45,187 bases of DNA from a virus: positions 1-45,187 of the IMG/VR virus record IMGVR_UViG_3300031973_000946, one strand, 5' to 3'. Positions 11,380-28,056 of this stretch are shown here, one piece after another; the first letter of the stretch is position 1; each line of letters begins with the position of its first letter. A program made the translations under genes and the position numbers. Below the pieces are notes generated by a model. It was not told where the DNA came from. It ran no database searches and saw only the letters and a list, made by a program, of their open reading frames with translations.

Positions 11380-13245
11380 TTAATTAATTTCACAGTTACC
11401 ACCAGCGCAAGCTAACTCGCCTGATAGATCTGTGTTATCATCAGTCTCTATTATTTTTGTTAAATCAACATCAGATAATACCTTGGACATTTTATTGTAT
11501 TCAGCTTCGTCAATGTCCTCAAACGGAGCCTGTGTGTATGTACCACCATCATATGGTAATACTGATAACCCATTGTAATAATCTCTATTACTCCACATCC
11601 ACTCACCTGCTTTCTCCCACTCATCTTCTTTCAAAGATATTGTAGCTGACACATTGTGAGTATTACTACCACGTTTGTGACCAGGCTTAATCCACTCTTG
11701 AGCTACACGTTTAACTCTTTCAAGAGTGTCAAACGGTGATTCAGTTCTAAGTATTGATTTAGCCGGAGCTTTCTGCGGTACAGATATAACTGCTGTATCG
11801 TGCGGTCTGAAGTATTCATCTTCAATTAATTCAGGATGTGACTTAGATAAATATTTATATATAGCCTCGTTCTTTCCTACGCGCATCCTACGGACATAAT
11901 AATCATTATGCCAAGCATGAATACCCGAAGATGTTCCGAGGACCAGAGATGTTGTCCCTGCAGGTTTTACAGTTGTGCATCTAGCCGATGTCTTTATTCC
12001 TATGATCTTCGCTACTCGTGCGTTTTCTTTTGTCACGATATTTGCAGCGTCCTTCATATCCATTTGGAGCACAGCGGCACTCCCTATTCCTGTCATTGAC
12101 ACACCTATAAGAGCGTCTTTCTCTGTTGTCTCTTTCCATATTTCTCTAAGATAATGGAAGTCGGTGTATGCGGCTTGCAATGTTCCAATAAACGCTGCTG
12201 CCTTAACTCTGTTATTAAAATCTTCTTGATCTTCTATATCAGAGACATTTACTTCACATAGATTACAGAACTGAAAAGGCCTTAACGCTATCTCACAACA
12301 AGGATTAGTTCCCCAGTCTTTGTCGTTATTAAGATATATACCAGGTTCTCCAGCTCCAGATAACTCAACTCGTTTCCATAAGTCCATAAAGAAATCTTTT
12401 GTTACTTTATGTCTCATTAAAACAGCTGAGTTATTAGATCTGCCTCTTTGTGGATTAGTTTCCCACCAATGCCCTGACTTACATCCTATCATTTCATTAT
12501 CACTAGCAGTAAACAAGCTAATTAATGCAGCCCGTCTAATACCACCAGCTAATACAGCATCAGCTATATGGCAAACGATATCGTGTACTTCAAGTGATGT
12601 TAACCTATCACCGTCTTCTTTTGATTGAAGTATACCCTCAACCTTGATTAAACATTCTTTTAATGGCTGTGGACCAGGCGCTTTACCACCTGATGTCACT
12701 AGCCTAGCACCTTTTGGTCTGATACAAGTATAATCAAAGTTTATTTTAGAAGCTTTATTACCCCCAAGATAAGATTTAATTAATACTTTAACTGAATCAG
12801 ACCAACCTTCAATTGAATCACCTATAACAAATCTCTTAGATCTTTTCATATAAGGTTTTGTTATTACAGGTAAGTCTTTGATATGATGCTGTTGAACCGA
12901 ATAACCGACTCCACATCCCGAAAGTAACAGAAACATTATTTCATTAAAAGCTTCGATATCATCTACAGGTAAATACGAACAGTTATATAATCTATTAGGA
13001 CTTACTTGTATTGGTTTACCAGCAAATTGTAAACTACGCATTGATGGTAAAACCTTCTTATCAAATACATAGGTATATGCATTTAATATATCGCTTTTTA
13101 ATTTTGGGTAATTCTTGATATGCATCTCCATATTTCTAGTAACTAGCTCTTCCCAAGTCTCTCTACGATTTAACTCAGGCATATATCTAGCATACTTCAT
13201 ATGTACTGTGATATCAGAAAGTATGTTTCTATTAATGTCTTTCAT
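11380..13245 (-). CDS. nrdJ: Adenosylcobalamin-dependent (class II) ribonucleoside-triphosphate reductase, monomeric type
   Basis: 621 aa; makes deoxynucleotides from ribonucleotides using coenzyme B12. NCS (C89) and NPCCEIAL (N314, C316, E318) give the first disulfide Cys, radical Cys and base. C327 lies 11 residues after C316, as C419 follows C408 in the Lactobacillus leichmannii enzyme. The C-terminal pair C613/C618 has the same 5-residue spacing as its re-reducing C731/C736. It is shorter than that enzyme (about 740 aa). The next upstream gene, a 45-aa frame, ends four bases before it. No small subunit is needed, so synthesis depends on host cobalamin. Confidence 0.93.
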   Translation of the reverse strand: MKDINRNILSDITVHMKYARYMPELNRRETWEELVTRNMEMHIKNYPKLKSDILNAYTYVFDKKVLPSMRSLQFAGKPIQVSPNRLYNCSYLPVDDIEAFNEIMFLLLSGCGVGYSVQQHHIKDLPVITKPYMKRSKRFVIGDSIEGWSDSVKVLIKSYLGGNKASKINFDYTCIRPKGARLVTSGGKAPGPQPLKECLIKVEGILQSKEDGDRLTSLEVHDIVCHIADAVLAGGIRRAALISLFTASDNEMIGCKSGHWWETNPQRGRSNNSAVLMRHKVTKDFFMDLWKRVELSGAGEPGIYLNNDKDWGTNPCCEIALRPFQFCNLCEVNVSDIEDQEDFNNRVKAAAFIGTLQAAYTDFHYLREIWKETTEKDALIGVSMTGIGSAAVLQMDMKDAANIVTKENARVAKIIGIKTSARCTTVKPAGTTSLVLGTSSGIHAWHNDYYVRRMRVGKNEAIYKYLSKSHPELIEDEYFRPHDTAVISVPQKAPAKSILRTESPFDTLERVKRVAQEWIKPGHKRGSNTHNVSATISLKEDEWEKAGEWMWSNRDYYNGLSVLPYDGGTYTQAPFEDIDEAEYNKMSKVLSDVDLTKIIETDDNTDLSGELACAGGNCEIN

Positions 13246-19644: not shown

Positions 19645-20400
19645 TTACAGATAGTCAATCACTTGCGAGTGTGGAACTTTCTCGATTAACTTATCAATAG
19701 CAAGCTTTTTTAACTGCGATATACGCACATAAGAGCTACTACCTTTTATACCTAATATGTCTGCAATTTCTTTAGCTGAATGCTTTTCACAATCAAGCCC
19801 ATATGATAGTCTTAACACTTGGTACTCTTTTGGATTTAAGTATTGTAACATCAAGGCTTTTAAGTAAGCTGACAGCCAACCTTTATTGTAAGTCTTTATG
19901 TCAGGTATGTTGTAAGCTGCATTACGTTGTTCTGGTGTTCCATCATCAAGGCTTGTAAATACTGAATTAAAAAATAACTCAACAGCTTTTCTATCTTCGC
20001 CAAAGTCTTTGCGTATTTCATTTAACTTATGTTCAGGTATACGCATGCTACCTCTATTGCTATCAATACCTCTACGTATAGCACCTTTAATTCTTTTAGA
20101 TAAAAAAGATTTTAAAGTTTTTTCTTGATCTTTAGCGTCTTGTATGGTTAGCCAATTTACCCTATCAGCGCCAGCACATAAGCCATAAAAACCTTCTTGA
20201 ATTAAATCATTTATAGTCATTACGCCTATTGCTTGCTGTGATGTTGAAAATTTTCTAGCTAAGTTTTCCACAAGTGGTAAAAATTTTTCAATTAACTGAT
20301 TTCTAGTATACTGACTATACGAAACGTCAGGCAACCTTGATAATACAGCACTCATGTCGTGCTTGTATCTTACGTAGTTTTGTATGTTATATTTCTTCAT
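19645..20400 (-). CDS. Sigma-70-family RNA polymerase sigma factor
   Basis: 251 aa. Region 2-like IEKFLPLVENLARKFS and NDLIQEGFYGL lie in the first half, and region 4-like YQVLRLSYGLD, KEIADILGI, YVRISQLKKLA form a C-terminal helix-turn-helix. Region 1.1 and region 3 are reduced. It would steer host RNA polymerase to phage promoters, possibly late ones or the YACAANNTAAATACG-N10-GATAATA family. It overlaps the deoxynucleotidase gene by 14 bases. Confidence 0.85.
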   Translation of the reverse strand: MKKYNIQNYVRYKHDMSAVLSRLPDVSYSQYTRNQLIEKFLPLVENLARKFSTSQQAIGVMTINDLIQEGFYGLCAGADRVNWLTIQDAKDQEKTLKSFLSKRIKGAIRRGIDSNRGSMRIPEHKLNEIRKDFGEDRKAVELFFNSVFTSLDDGTPEQRNAAYNIPDIKTYNKGWLSAYLKALMLQYLNPKEYQVLRLSYGLDCEKHSAKEIADILGIKGSSSYVRISQLKKLAIDKLIEKVPHSQVIDYL

Positions 20401-23814: not shown

Positions 23815-24078
23815 CTATCCTGTTATTGATACTACATAATCTTCATCATCACTAACTAAAAATCTATCACCATATAATAAATCCATATGGCTTATAGATA
23901 ATAAATTAGTATGAGAAAAGTTAATAAGCTTACTAACATCATGGACTTTTAAATCAGACCAAAAGTTATTACGCTTTAAGCTGTCAATTAAAGCCATAGT
24001 TGTAGCAGGATATTTTTTTAAGTCTTCCTGAATACTATCGCGTATTTCAGGTTTTAGTTTTTCGTATAAATTTTTCAT
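23815..24078 (-). CDS. Hypothetical protein, 87 aa
   Basis: Helical, charged N-terminus (YEKLKPEIRDSIQEDLKKYP) and a beta end (DRFLVSDDEDYVVSITG). It lies directly behind promoter copy 1 (GATAATAATAATATG), where the start codon falls about where transcription should begin, so the mRNA may be almost leaderless. No family known. Confidence 0.6.
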   Translation of the reverse strand: MKNLYEKLKPEIRDSIQEDLKKYPATTMALIDSLKRNNFWSDLKVHDVSKLINFSHTNLLSISHMDLLYGDRFLVSDDEDYVVSITG

Positions 24079-24083
24079 ATTAT

Positions 24084-24115
24084 TATTATCTTACTTTATT
24101 CGTATTTAATTTGTA
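24084..24115 (-). promoter_or_regulatory. Early promoter family, copy 1
   Basis: Minus strand TACAAATTAAATACG, 10 bases, GATAATA, then the ATG of the 87-aa gene six bases after the GATAAT hexamer. The upstream box starts five bases after the 3' end of the tRNA-like structure. Member of a seven-copy set. Confidence 0.7.
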
Positions 24116-24119
24116 ATTG

Positions 24120-24222
24120 TAGTATGAGTGGGACTCGAACCCACTGCTTCGTCAAGCAACCTTCATTACTCACTAGCTCGTTAAAACGTTTACTAGTGCA
24201 AGCAATTACTCCTGTTCATACT
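24120..24222 (-). ncRNA. tRNA-like structure with 7-bp acceptor and T-arm
   Basis: On the minus strand AGTATGA (24222-24216) pairs perfectly with TCATACT (24127-24121). Just inside lies a canonical T-arm GTGGG-TTCGAGT-CCCAC, preceded by a TGCTT-GACG-AAGCA hairpin like a class II variable arm. At about 103 nt it is longer than normal tRNAs. I find no standard D-loop GG or 7-nt anticodon loop; a CACTAG/CTAGTG stem with a 16-nt loop takes that place. No CCA is encoded. It may be a degenerate or unusual tRNA, a tmRNA-like 3' domain, or a tRNA mimic. Confidence 0.65.
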
Positions 24223-24486
24223 CACCGTCTGTAGAGGTAGTTATACCGTTTCATTCTACTTTAGATCTACCTTTGACGGATTTTTTGAGTAGCTAGTACC
24301 GTGTACTGTTTGCACCACTCGTGCAGCAAGAAGATTAGATACCGAGTTTCGGTGAGCCGAGTTTCGGTTACACTCTCTTCGCCCGCGTTTGATAATTATT
24401 AGTTTCAATAACTAGTCTACGACAATTACGTTATTTACTTACATCTCCAGCCGCGTGAAGGCTATTATCGTTGGAGACTTACGGAA
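24223..24486 (-). ncRNA. Structured noncoding region upstream of the tRNA-like end
   Basis: About 265 bases without a reading frame but dense in hairpins: TCTCCA/TGGAGA (24444-24477) with an inner GCC/GGC; two 15-base-spaced CCGA-AAC-TCGG hairpins (24341-24353, 24357-24367); TGCAC/GTGCA (24311-24325); AGTAC/GTACT (24295-24307); and TACGGAA/TTCCGTA (24480-24498) around the preceding gene's stop. Together with the tRNA-like end it could be one RNA of about 360 nt. Known RNA families were not recognised. Confidence 0.5.
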
Positions 24487-24660
24487 TTAGTTTCCGTATC
24501 TATCTCTCAGCGCAGAATAGTTTTGCATAATGCTAACTATCTTATCTCTACTTAATCCTGAATAGTCTGATACTACAGAGGTGTTAAACATGTTAGTTAC
24601 TCCTGATTCTCTTACATCTTCGTAAGCTTGAAAGTCATCTTGTGTTATTTCTATTGTCAT
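24487..24660 (-). CDS. Conserved small phage protein, 57 aa
   Basis: Starts at ATG 24660. YEDVRESGVTNMFNTSVV, SGLSRDKIVSIMQNY and LRDRYGN match a conserved short phage protein pattern (R-x-SGVTNMF). Entirely helical, function unknown. Its stop codon lies in the loop of a 7-bp hairpin. It follows the 73-aa zinc-finger gene by 17 bases. Confidence 0.7.
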   Translation of the reverse strand: MTIEITQDDFQAYEDVRESGVTNMFNTSVVSDYSGLSRDKIVSIMQNYSALRDRYGN

Positions 24661-24677
24661 ATTATTAATTATTTTAG

Positions 24678-24899
24678 TTATTTCAACATAGTACCATAGC
24701 CACGTCTGCGCGTTTTCTTGAGTATATAAGCTGCTTCCTCGCTTGACATGATTTGTATTTCATTACCTGTCTTGTGATTTGTTATTGGTATACAACCATA
24801 ACGCATTACTGACGAGCAGTTAACACAAACTTTATAGCCAAGATCAACGCGACCTTGTGGCATGATACTATTACATTTTATACATTTGTTCATATACAT
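24678..24899 (-). CDS. Small zinc-ribbon protein, 73 aa
   Basis: MYMNKCIKCNSIM...VCVNCSSVM has two CxxC pairs, a zinc ribbon. The rest has IMSSEEAAYILKKTRRRGYG, a basic helix. A second Met at residue 3 could be the true start. Placed directly behind promoter copy 2. Similar to phage DksA-like or ribbon regulators, target unknown. Confidence 0.6.
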   Translation of the reverse strand: MYMNKCIKCNSIMPQGRVDLGYKVCVNCSSVMRYGCIPITNHKTGNEIQIMSSEEAAYILKKTRRRGYGTMLK

Positions 24900-24900
24900 A

Positions 24901-24932
24901 TATTATCTACGAGTAATCGTATTTAATTTGTG
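24901..24932 (-). promoter_or_regulatory. Early promoter family, copy 2
   Basis: Minus strand CACAAATTAAATACG, 10 bases, GATAATA, then ATG codons of the 73-aa gene. Same geometry as the other copies; spacer sequence (ATTACTCGTA) is unrelated to the others, so conservation is limited to the two boxes and spacing. Confidence 0.7.
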
Positions 24933-24934
24933 AT

Positions 24935-25150
24935 TTAAAATATATCTTCTAAATCAATAGTGTAGCTATGATTACTACTATTTTCATGAGATAATAGTAT
25001 AGCCGCTTGTAAACCATCTAAATAACCTGCTTTATAAACAGCTGTTTCATGAGCGGTAAAATCAACTAATAAGCTTTTTACTTGCTCATAACTTTCTGGA
25101 CTTAACTCGTCCATTAGTTCTTGTTCTATTTCTTTTAATTTTTCTATCAT
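24935..25150 (-). CDS. Hypothetical acidic helical protein, 71 aa
   Basis: MIEKLKEIEQELMDEL and FTAHETAVYKAGYLDGLQAAILL suggest a helical dimer; similar short proteins occur in phage early regions. Start overlaps the previous 28-aa frame stop (TAATG). Function unknown. Confidence 0.6.
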   Translation of the reverse strand: MIEKLKEIEQELMDELSPESYEQVKSLLVDFTAHETAVYKAGYLDGLQAAILLSHENSSNHSYTIDLEDIF

Positions 25151-26270: not shown

Positions 26271-26275
26271 ATTAT

Positions 26276-26307
26276 TATTATCTTATAGTGTTCGTATTTA
26301 TATTGTG
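26276..26307 (-). promoter_or_regulatory. Early promoter family, copy 3
   Basis: Minus strand CACAATATAAATACG, 10 bases, GATAATA. The first two bases of the upstream box are the last acceptor base and discriminator of tRNA-Arg, so the tRNA end and the promoter overlap. Confidence 0.7.
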
Positions 26308-26379
26308 ATTGAGGTAGGACTCGAACCTACACTCTACAGCTTAGAAGGCTGTTGCTTTATCCAGTTAAGCTACTCAACC
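26306..26379 (-). tRNA. tRNA-Arg (anticodon UCU)
   Basis: 74 nt cloverleaf: acceptor GGTTGAG/CTCAATC (one G-U), D-arm GCTT...AAGC, anticodon arm ACAGC-CTTCTAA-GCTGT, T-arm GTAGG-TTCGAGT-CCTAC, discriminator A, CCA not encoded. The anticodon reads AGA, a heavily used Arg codon in this AT-rich phage, which explains why it would be kept. Confidence 0.93.
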
Positions 26380-26510: not shown

Positions 26511-26789
26511 TTAATATAGTGTTTTACCATTATTACTTGCTAATTTATCTAAAAACATATCAATATCTGCTATATTTTTAGCATCAATTAACTCTTTTAG
26601 TTCGCTACAGTACTCATATTCTTCAGTATTTTCAAAGTATTCAAGCATATCTTGCAACTCATCAGTTTGAAGATCGAGTGGATTACCATAAAACATAGCA
26701 TCTTTACCTTCATACTGATTAAGAATATCTTCAATACTACACCTATTAGTGAGTACTCCAAACGTATTTCTCATACAGTTATCTATCAT
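26511..26789 (-). CDS. Hypothetical acidic protein, 92 aa
   Basis: Helical acidic protein (IEDILNQYEGKDAMFYG, LQDMLEYFENTEEYEYCSELKELIDA), with a UVR-like paired-helix look reminiscent of the 95-aa gene at 23034. It follows the mini tRNA-like element by 15 bases. Function unknown. Confidence 0.55.
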   Translation of the reverse strand: MIDNCMRNTFGVLTNRCSIEDILNQYEGKDAMFYGNPLDLQTDELQDMLEYFENTEEYEYCSELKELIDAKNIADIDMFLDKLASNNGKTLY

Positions 26790-26804: not shown

Positions 26805-26845
26805 TGGTAGTGGTGAGAATCGAACTCACTTAAACCATTACTACC
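26805..26845 (-). ncRNA. Minimal tRNA-like hairpin (acceptor + T-arm only)
   Basis: Minus strand: GGTAGT (26845-26840) pairs with ACTACC (26811-26806). Between them lie about 10 bases and a canonical T-arm GTGAG-TTCGATT-CTCAC, then discriminator A. No D or anticodon arm fits. It looks like a tRNA reduced to its acceptor/T half, or a decayed tRNA gene. Confidence 0.5.
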
Positions 26846-27255: not shown

Positions 27256-27290
27256 AACTATTTATTTTATTGTATTAAACTTTATATTAT

Positions 27291-27322
27291 TATTATCTTT
27301 ACTTTATCGTATTTATTTTGTA
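27291..27322 (-). promoter_or_regulatory. Early promoter family, copy 4
   Basis: Minus strand TACAAAATAAATACG, 10 bases, GATAATA, then a 35-base AT-rich leader ending ATAGTTATG at the 76-aa gene. Leader end is nearly the same as at copy 5. Confidence 0.7.
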
Positions 27323-27493
27323 TTATATTACTGTACAAACATACTCATCTTTTACACTAACATCATCTCGCATTAGTAAATCATCTTTTATTCTTGATAA
27401 TTGTATACATGTTTTAGTGTATAATTCCATTTTAGTATACTCGTGTCCATCGAACATTAGTATCATATTTATTAAGTATTTTTTTAAATCCAT
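27323..27493 (-). CDS. Hypothetical protein, 56 aa
   Basis: Frame MDLKKYLINMILMFDGHEYTK... ends VCTVI-stop right at promoter copy 4. Its leader (AATAAATAGTTATG) matches that of the next gene and it is preceded by promoter copy 5. Helical; no family. Confidence 0.55.
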   Translation of the reverse strand: MDLKKYLINMILMFDGHEYTKMELYTKTCIQLSRIKDDLLMRDDVSVKDEYVCTVI

Positions 27494-27517
27494 AACTATT
27501 TATTTTATTTACATTAT

Positions 27518-27549
27518 TATTATCTTTGCTCTTCCGTATTTAGTTTGTA
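27518..27549 (-). promoter_or_regulatory. Early promoter family, copy 5
   Basis: Minus strand TACAAACTAAATACG, 10 bases, GATAATA, then a 25-base leader to ATG 27493. The 150 bases further upstream (27550-27702) hold no gene I can support. Confidence 0.7.
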
Positions 27550-27702
27550 AAAGTATATTATTTGTTTATACATTTATTTTTGTTAGCGCATACTCCGCCA
27601 CTTCTCTCATTGTATAATGAAAGTTATTATTAATAGTATGACATTAGCATTATAAGTACTTAGAGTAACTACCTATTGTCACAGTATTTAGTAGAGATAT
27701 TA

Positions 27703-27921: not shown

Positions 27922-27980
27922 ATTATTATATTTAAGTTATTATTATTATATTATATTAGTTGTTAGTTGTTTTACATTTA

Positions 27981-28012
27981 TATTATCAAAGTGTATTCGT
28001 ATTTATATTGTA
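27981..28012 (-). promoter_or_regulatory. Early promoter family, copy 6
   Basis: Minus strand TACAATATAAATACG, 10 bases, GATAATA, then about 60 bases of AT-rich leader to the 72-aa gene. It is the outermost copy, at the start of the minus-strand block. Confidence 0.7.
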
Positions 28013-28056
28013 AAGTGAAAATGATATTGATAATATTGAATAGAAATAAAATGGAT

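Follow-up and report, generated by a model that had tools for sequence, protein, structure and literature searches.

The gene-free gap at 24079-24486 in a 45,187-nucleotide stretch of viral DNA (IMG/VR record IMGVR_UViG_3300031973_000946, hereafter the window) is a modular cassette of separable RNAs, not one RNA. Judged from its letters and those of related copies, the gap is likely to constitute an RNA-processing cassette on the minus strand, made up of a candidate HDV-like ribozyme, a set of exchangeable RNA modules (beads) and a tRNA-like domain (TLD). A first-pass annotation had proposed a single RNA of about 360 nt in this place; that proposal is abandoned here, since modules are gained, lost and reordered among related phages.

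The large terminase of the phage matches only Flavobacteriia phages (Flavobacterium, Cellulophaga, Tenacibaculum, Maribacter) and one environmental record, and an elemovirus has much of its gene set in common with the window phage; from these two observations we infer a member of the Flavobacteriia as host. The phage belongs to a marine lineage. The list of open reading frames (ORF) places the gap between two small ORFs inside a block of minus-strand genes and makes it exactly 408 bp long, as first reported. Its structured elements all lie on the minus strand. The features discussed below are the following, with G and L labels denoting other DNA collected for the analysis:

24487..24660, minus strand: 57-aa ORF (MTIEITQDDFQAYEDVRESGV...RYGN), the upstream mRNA; translated, conserved in L103, L139 and L175
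24391..24478, minus strand: bead M1, HDV-like self-cleaving ribozyme candidate, from the HDV descriptor, its controls and P1/P2/P4 covariation
24464..24469, minus strand: P2 5′ strand GAUAAU, pairing with AUUAUC at 24391-24396 (pseudoknot)
24450..24462, minus strand: P3 hairpin GCC-UUCACGC-GGC, with U20 (24459) and G25 (24454) in its L3 loop
24443..24449, minus strand: P1 3′ strand UGGAGAU, pairing with the 5′ strand GUCUCCA at 24472-24478
24407..24435, minus strand: P4 hairpin AAUAAC...GUUAUU, a covarying 6-bp helix (0/5000 permutations)
24399..24402, minus strand: J4/2 CUAA (CNRA), with the predicted catalytic cytosine at 24402
24323..24386, minus strand: bead M2, long hairpin GCGGGCGAAGA...UCUUCUUGCUGC, from the fold
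24287..24320, minus strand: bead M4, hairpin GAGUGGUGCAAACAGUAC..GUACUAGCUACUC, from the fold; also in L103, L139 and L140
24225..24279, minus strand: bead M5, pseudoknot with closing helix CCGUC/GACGG, S1 GGUAG/CUACC and S2 GUAGA/UCUAC
24120..24222, minus strand: TLD of 103 nt, with 7-bp acceptor, GG linker (ACAGGAGUA), long arm, hairpin and T-arm
24128..24144, minus strand: T-arm of the TLD, GUGGG-UUCGAGU-CCCAC, covarying
24079..24118, minus strand: leader of the 87-aa gene, a box containing UAAAUACG that recurs before other genes and lies outside the structured RNA
26805..26845, minus strand: second TLD, 41-nt form GGUAGUA-AUGGUUUAA-GUGAG-UUCGAUU-CUCAC-CACUACC-A, from the structure scan
26305..26379, minus strand: ordinary tRNA-Arg(UCU), from Aragorn and Rfam, directly upstream of a gene leader

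The upstream ORF ends at 24487, with the ribozyme candidate beginning 8 nt past its stop codon, and the downstream 87-aa ORF starts at 24078. The structured locus as originally drawn (24079-24498) therefore needs trimming at both ends, 24079-24118 being the downstream gene leader and 24487-24498 coding, while the remainder is structured. Both the minus strand (z -3.6) and the plus strand (z -4.0) of the gap fold better than shuffles, so that folding energy alone cannot pick the strand; the minus strand is assigned because of the T-arm, the direction of the neighbouring genes and the covariation. Aragorn calls neither a tRNA nor a tmRNA in the gap. Rfam, even at E<10, returns chance matches only (snoZ30a, Plastid-ycf2, RNase_P of Plasmodium, CyVA-1), with no group I intron, hammerhead, twister, hatchet or pistol in the window locus. 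The earlier view that the locus is neither a tmRNA nor a known Rfam RNA agrees with both programs. Blast of the locus or of its first bead against named phages gave no match.

Leader boxes near-identical to the one at 24079-24118 stand before several genes (26271-26310, 27286-27325, 27513-27550 and others), and TAAATACG occurs 10 times against 2.9 expected. The box is also seen at 24899-24940 and 27967-28020, with consensus ACAAAYUAAAUACGAAUAAAGUAAGAUAAUA before minus-strand genes, and the phage encodes a sigma factor (19645-20400). The repeated box is possibly a phage promoter, in which case the downstream mRNA would need no processing.

The HDV-like ribozyme candidate

The 5′ bead, M1, very probably has an HDV-like fold. 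It satisfies the nested double-pseudoknot topology P1-P2-P3-P1′-(P4)-J4/2-P2′, with G1 at 24478 and a predicted cut at 24479|24478 (..UUCCGUAA^GUCUCCA). P1 has 7 bp in the window and opens with a G.U pair, as it does in most copies (A-U in L142, L164 and L167). P1.1 joins Y22 (24457), the third L3 base, to R38 (24442), the base after P1; this pair covaries as C-G or U-A in 19/19 copies, both positions being free in the scan pattern. The U20/G25 pair of L3, a signature of the HDV-like family (PMC3386971), is found in the window and in copies that were not gathered by their L3 pattern. All complete copies carry GAAAC[UA]AA, though the collection scan did not demand it. The predicted catalytic C comes after GAAA, whereas the descriptor of PMC10879173 has it first in J4/2; AGU/ACU could pair and sequester this C.

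Over 18 copies, P1, P2 and P4 covary (0/5000 permutations each). For the two long-range helices, own pairing reaches 6.6 and 6.3, against 4.0 and 4.1 with partners permuted (0/5000), the values for P2 being 6.61 and 3.99 (0/5000); the sequence of these helices varies by copy, their pairing is always kept, and the linker hairpin covaries too.

A descriptor was built from HDV rules only, with no M1-specific sequence beyond the positions that they define. It matches the window once, at 24391-24478 on the minus strand, and has no match in 60 shuffled windows; over all DNA collected for analysis it finds 20 distinct loci. Because the descriptor was written after the bead had been seen, its match there is a consistency test, and the extra matches and the controls are independent. 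The matches include ribozymes of different sequence in L023, L026, L036, L040 and L050, which had been gathered for another reason. In a control modelled on PMC10879173, descriptors with A, G or U at the catalytic position gave no locus outside the C set; a non-U first base in L3 gave 0 matches, and a non-G sixth base gave 1. The Rfam HDV models do not match the window bead. Since the 5′ module is HDV-like by structure and signature nucleotides, self-cleavage would be expected of this portion of the locus. The first-pass suggestion of a new RNA class consequently divides: it fits a structured, conserved locus with a tRNA-like 3′ end, and does not fit the 5′ module, which appears to be of a known, HDV-like kind. 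As a side observation, the five phages just named are linked through class II RNR, and their ribozyme candidates have J4/2 CCAA, CUAA or CCGA and a P4 surround unlike that of the window copy.

Ribozyme copies were collected by an IMG/VR scan with a degenerate core, which places the type in 19 IMG/VR stretches, and the same pattern has 0 occurrences in 84,980 GTDB genomes. Many of the ribozyme-bearing contigs are tRNA-cluster phages, and blast located further copies in crAss-like phages. In crAss-like phage cr125_1 (NC_055900; L179:1889-2570), one intergenic island holds RAGATH-7 (an Rfam match), a Hatchet ribozyme and an HDV-like candidate. About 2 kb without annotated genes in crAss-like phage cr273_1 (NC_055904; L178:1856-3854) contains an HDV-like copy whose L3 begins with G, not U. 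Elsewhere, the ribozyme begins right after the discriminator base of a tRNA-Tyr (L168), at a tRNA 3′ end for a P4-less copy (L167, position 10525), and immediately 3′ of the final acceptor base in a phage tmRNA (L164). Because these copies adjoin tRNA and tmRNA ends, we take the family to work at the 3′ ends of RNAs; the RNA upstream of the window copy is an mRNA. The L164 tmRNA itself (L164:1351-1830; Rfam, 60.7 bits), which has the ribozyme at its exact 3′ end, was missed by Aragorn and has an odd T-loop.

Exchangeable beads

The relatives compared comprise a nearly identical contig (L086), the divergent G002, and L103, L133, L137, L139, L140 and L141, later joined by L174, L175 and L177, all added by IMG/VR pattern scans; the copies are few and related, and their alignments are partly hand-trimmed. 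Among them M1, M2, the smaller hairpins M3 and M4, M5 and the TLD are present or absent independently, with the TLD closing the row or standing close to its 3′ end. M2 accounts for the repeated CCGA-AAC-TCGG noted at first pass, whose two copies (CCGAAACUCGG, starts 15 nt apart) sit inside one helix, and it recurs in L103, L133, L137 and L139 with a varying interior. M4 has AGUAC/GUACU here versus AGUGG/CCACU in L139, and both hairpins show some compensatory changes. The layout of M5 is kept with different bases in 7 relatives (eight versions), own pairing exceeding crossed pairing for the closing helix (5.5 vs 2.4), S1 (4.7 vs 2.3) and S2 (5.6 vs 4.2) in what is a small sample; this evidence is moderate because the segments were hand-chosen and one version is unmatched by the automatic order check.

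The ribozyme bead is absent from L133, L137, L139 and L140, the first three of which keep the TLD; the two therefore need not work together. In L133 and L137, M1 seems to have been lost by deletion, with GUCUC as its remainder. G002 is without M2 and M4, and one relative, L141/G034, carries an extra folded bead after the TLD. Outside the main island there are further beads that have pseudoknots and closing stems of 5-7 bp (L103:4900-5080, L139 near 11790-11930, L155:12038-12106), one of them beside a tRNA-Asp.

These comparisons weigh on the alternative that the gap encodes a single functional unit, a new long non-coding RNA of ~360 nt whose 3′ end is tRNA-like. The island does fold better than shuffles, its beads run head to tail in a single orientation and the TLD keeps a place close to the 3′ end throughout. 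However, bead content and order differ between close relatives, as in the four without a ribozyme, in G002 and in the relative with post-TLD beads. The 5′ bead should moreover cut free of the upstream RNA, and RNase P should split off the TLD. We consider a single RNA unlikely and read the gap as a row of separable modules.

tRNA-like domains

The tRNA-like domain is almost certainly under selection. Several of its parts had been recognised at first pass, and the analysis recovers each of them: a 7-bp acceptor helix (AGUAUGA/UCAUACU, 24216-24222 with 24121-24127), the canonical T-arm, a class II-like variable hairpin (UGCUUGACGAAGCA, 24145-24158) and a length of about 103 nt. A matching 5′ acceptor strand had been thought missing and in fact exists. 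The long arm has no anticodon loop, as first described; the D-loop, also described as lacking, is represented by a D-loop-like GG, though the D-stem is absent. The discriminator is A 24120 and no CCA is encoded. All copies have a GG a few nt past the acceptor, followed by an arm of highly variable length.

In seven copies collected by sequence and not by structure, 99.2% of the cells in the acceptor, T-arm and extra hairpin are paired, with 14 double-change cells against 5.0 in shuffles (0/500) and at most 4 when the partners are slid. Ten trimmed copies give 28 double-change cells against 7.0 (0/500), a figure that is partly circular because three of the ten were found via pairing, and it is the seven-copy figure that we rely on. 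Compensatory changes across homologues, which the first-pass annotation had named as a check on the locus, are hence found in the relatives' copies. Comparison at the sequence level establishes selection on structure, together with the order, orientation and placement of the cassette.

A scan for acceptor, GG linker and T-arm finds 2 elements in the window, against 0.025 expected per shuffled window. The second, the 41-nt form, lies just upstream of the gene at 26511-26789 and has no arm at all, leaving no room for an anticodon arm; model R1 scores it at 54 bits (E 3e-15), the element being a member of that model's own set. The same form occurs in G001, G007, G015, G033 and L175, and longer forms in G002, G031, G029 and G034. 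Both window TLDs lie directly before gene leaders, on the coding strand. The TLD has neither the D-arm nor the 7-nt anticodon loop of a tRNA, and Aragorn and RF00005 are negative. A tmRNA layout is likewise absent, the acceptor strands being 88 nt apart in the TLD and 26 nt in the 41-nt form (~300 nt in tmRNA); the tmRNA model RF00023 gives a sub-threshold match of 14.9 bits, on the 41-nt form only. GAAACUAAUAAUUAUCAA, which reads ETNNYQ like the start of a tmRNA tag, was rejected as such, since it is the J4/2 and P2 strand of the ribozyme and the acceptor topology is not that of a tmRNA.

Three side observations concern similar elements and their surroundings. MW202828, a named environmental relative, has a TLD-like element just past its zinc-ribbon gene, and a zinc-finger-like gene precedes the island in G015. 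Aragorn does not call a 62-nt tRNA-like element at L139:8703-8764 (GGUGACA...CGUCAUCA, containing GGUUGGUGGAUACC), which may be a truncated tRNA in the place of the mini-TLD. The 129-kb relative G039 has a phage-encoded tmRNA (L156:1540-1879) with tag GNAEYAMAA and encoded CCA.

The combination of a conserved top half with an arm that is hypervariable from 0 to ~100 nt, and of island content shuffled between phages, could also be expected if the TLDs served as decoys or mimics to tie up a tRNA-binding enzyme of the host or a defence directed at tRNAs, the arm diverging in an arms race. Yet anticodon-cutting defences would not be the target of elements without an anticodon loop, there is no known defence or partner, and the placement before gene leaders goes unexplained, leaving decoys improbable. 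An origin by decay, from tRNA genes or a tmRNA whose remains persist by chance among ordinary hairpins, would accommodate the sub-threshold RF00023 match and the true tmRNA of a more distant relative; but acceptor and T-arm are held by compensatory changes while the rest varies freely, the same 41-nt form is seen again in at least five phages, and decay would not preserve pairing, so that we give this explanation very little credence. A phage attachment site with the 3′ end of a host tRNA gene is the most improbable reading, for although the T-arm and 3′ acceptor resemble an attP core, which typically consists of these two parts, both acceptor strands co-vary, there are two TLDs per genome, and no integrase match was found among those window proteins scanned (a subset).

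Proposed processing and known systems

Under the processing-cassette reading, the candidate ribozyme would cut the transcript at 24479|24478, fixing the 3′ end of the upstream mRNA and leaving a 5′-OH end enclosed by the ribozyme fold, as HDV-type cleavage yields a 5′-OH end shielded by the fold (PMC11331408). Host RNase P and RNase Z, both of which read the D-/T-loop elbow (PMC4810234), would recognise the acceptor/T-arm top half of the TLD, where the GG linker and T-loop could rebuild that elbow. Their cuts, predicted at 24223|24222 and 24120|24119, would release the tRNA-like RNA, which would then be CCA-tailed, and the downstream mRNA. Archaeal t-elements, which are processed by both enzymes, provide a precedent for tRNA-like processing signals (PMC4326828). 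Once released, this RNA would probably be stable, as T4 species 1 RNA is. It is from structure and precedent of this kind that we infer self-cleavage, RNase P/RNase Z processing, CCA addition and stability, and we hold a processing role of the cassette to be evenly balanced. That anticodon-less tRNA-like RNAs (to 41 nt), in two syntenic places of Bacteroidota phages, set transcript ends with a P4-bearing HDV-like ribozyme subfamily and form a new class is a tentative proposal that we place slightly below that balance, its novelty being judged against Rfam, while known motifs outside Rfam, such as those RAGATH motifs that Rfam lacks, may include the ribozyme type. A literature search within an open library turned up no account of phage tRNA-like RNAs lacking an anticodon, a negative that weighs little.

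The known associations of phage HDV-like ribozymes were chiefly with gut phages and with the 3′ ends of tRNAs. In the present case an HDV-like candidate stands between protein genes of a marine lineage, and elsewhere the same type stands at a tmRNA 3′ end, pointing to wider uses. With their 41 nt, the short tRNA-like elements are close to the lower size limit at which RNase P, RNase Z and the CCA-adding enzyme could recognise them, and through them the role of stable phage RNAs without an anticodon, T4 species 1 among them, becomes directly testable. As this locus shows, a gap in a phage genome can be an island of fast evolution, made of interchangeable RNA parts invisible to Rfam, and the ribozyme-to-TLD array suggests that these viruses use small RNAs to cut and cap their transcripts.

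Among known RNAs, the tRNA-like domain of tmRNA has an acceptor stem, a GG D-loop without a D-stem, a T-arm and no anticodon in common with the TLDs; tmRNA, however, is ~340-370 nt long, with a tag frame and pseudoknots inserted inside the domain, whereas the TLDs measure 41-145 nt without these. T4 species 1 RNA (NC_000866, 70908-71046; L180:1409-1547), annotated as rnaC, is a stable RNA of 139 nt encoded beside the T4 tRNA genes and ending in a perfect T-arm (CCGGG-UUCGAAU-CCCGG) and an acceptor-like 3′ strand, a likeness of layout drawn by eye. Two U-U mismatches interrupt its acceptor (CGAUUCG/CGUUUCG), and rnaC is not matched by model R1, so that the likeness falls short of shared ancestry. 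T4 species 1 RNA may be a long tRNA-like domain of the TLD kind, and to our knowledge no function is known for it.

Archaeal t-elements and viral and metazoan tRNA-like elements also stand before another gene and are expected to recruit RNase P and tRNase Z (PMC4326828, PMC4810234). The TLDs differ from t-elements in coming from a bacterial virus and in having a 41-nt form without an anticodon arm, and their processing is proposed by structural compatibility only.

With HDV-like ribozymes (PMC3386971, PMC4908430), the window candidate has in common a 7-bp P1 with G.U at the cut, P2, P3, P1.1, P4, U20/G25 and CNRA; its sequence is unmatched by the Rfam HDV families, and it is a candidate by structure. 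Theta ribozymes are minimal HDV-like ribozymes of gut Bacteroidota phages, self-cleaving in vitro and located at tRNA 3′ ends (PMC10879173). The double-pseudoknot topology, the phage-only spread and the Bacteroidota hosts are common to both, and the theta cut site at a tRNA 3′ end is matched by the L168 (tRNA-Tyr) and L167 copies, with the L164 copy at a tmRNA end. Whereas the theta tRNA subgroup cuts ≤5 nt from the tRNA 3′ end, the window copy follows a protein ORF; and whereas theta ribozymes are defined without P4, the window copy, from a marine phage lineage, has a covarying 6-bp P4 with a conserved RUAAGUA/GAAAC surround.
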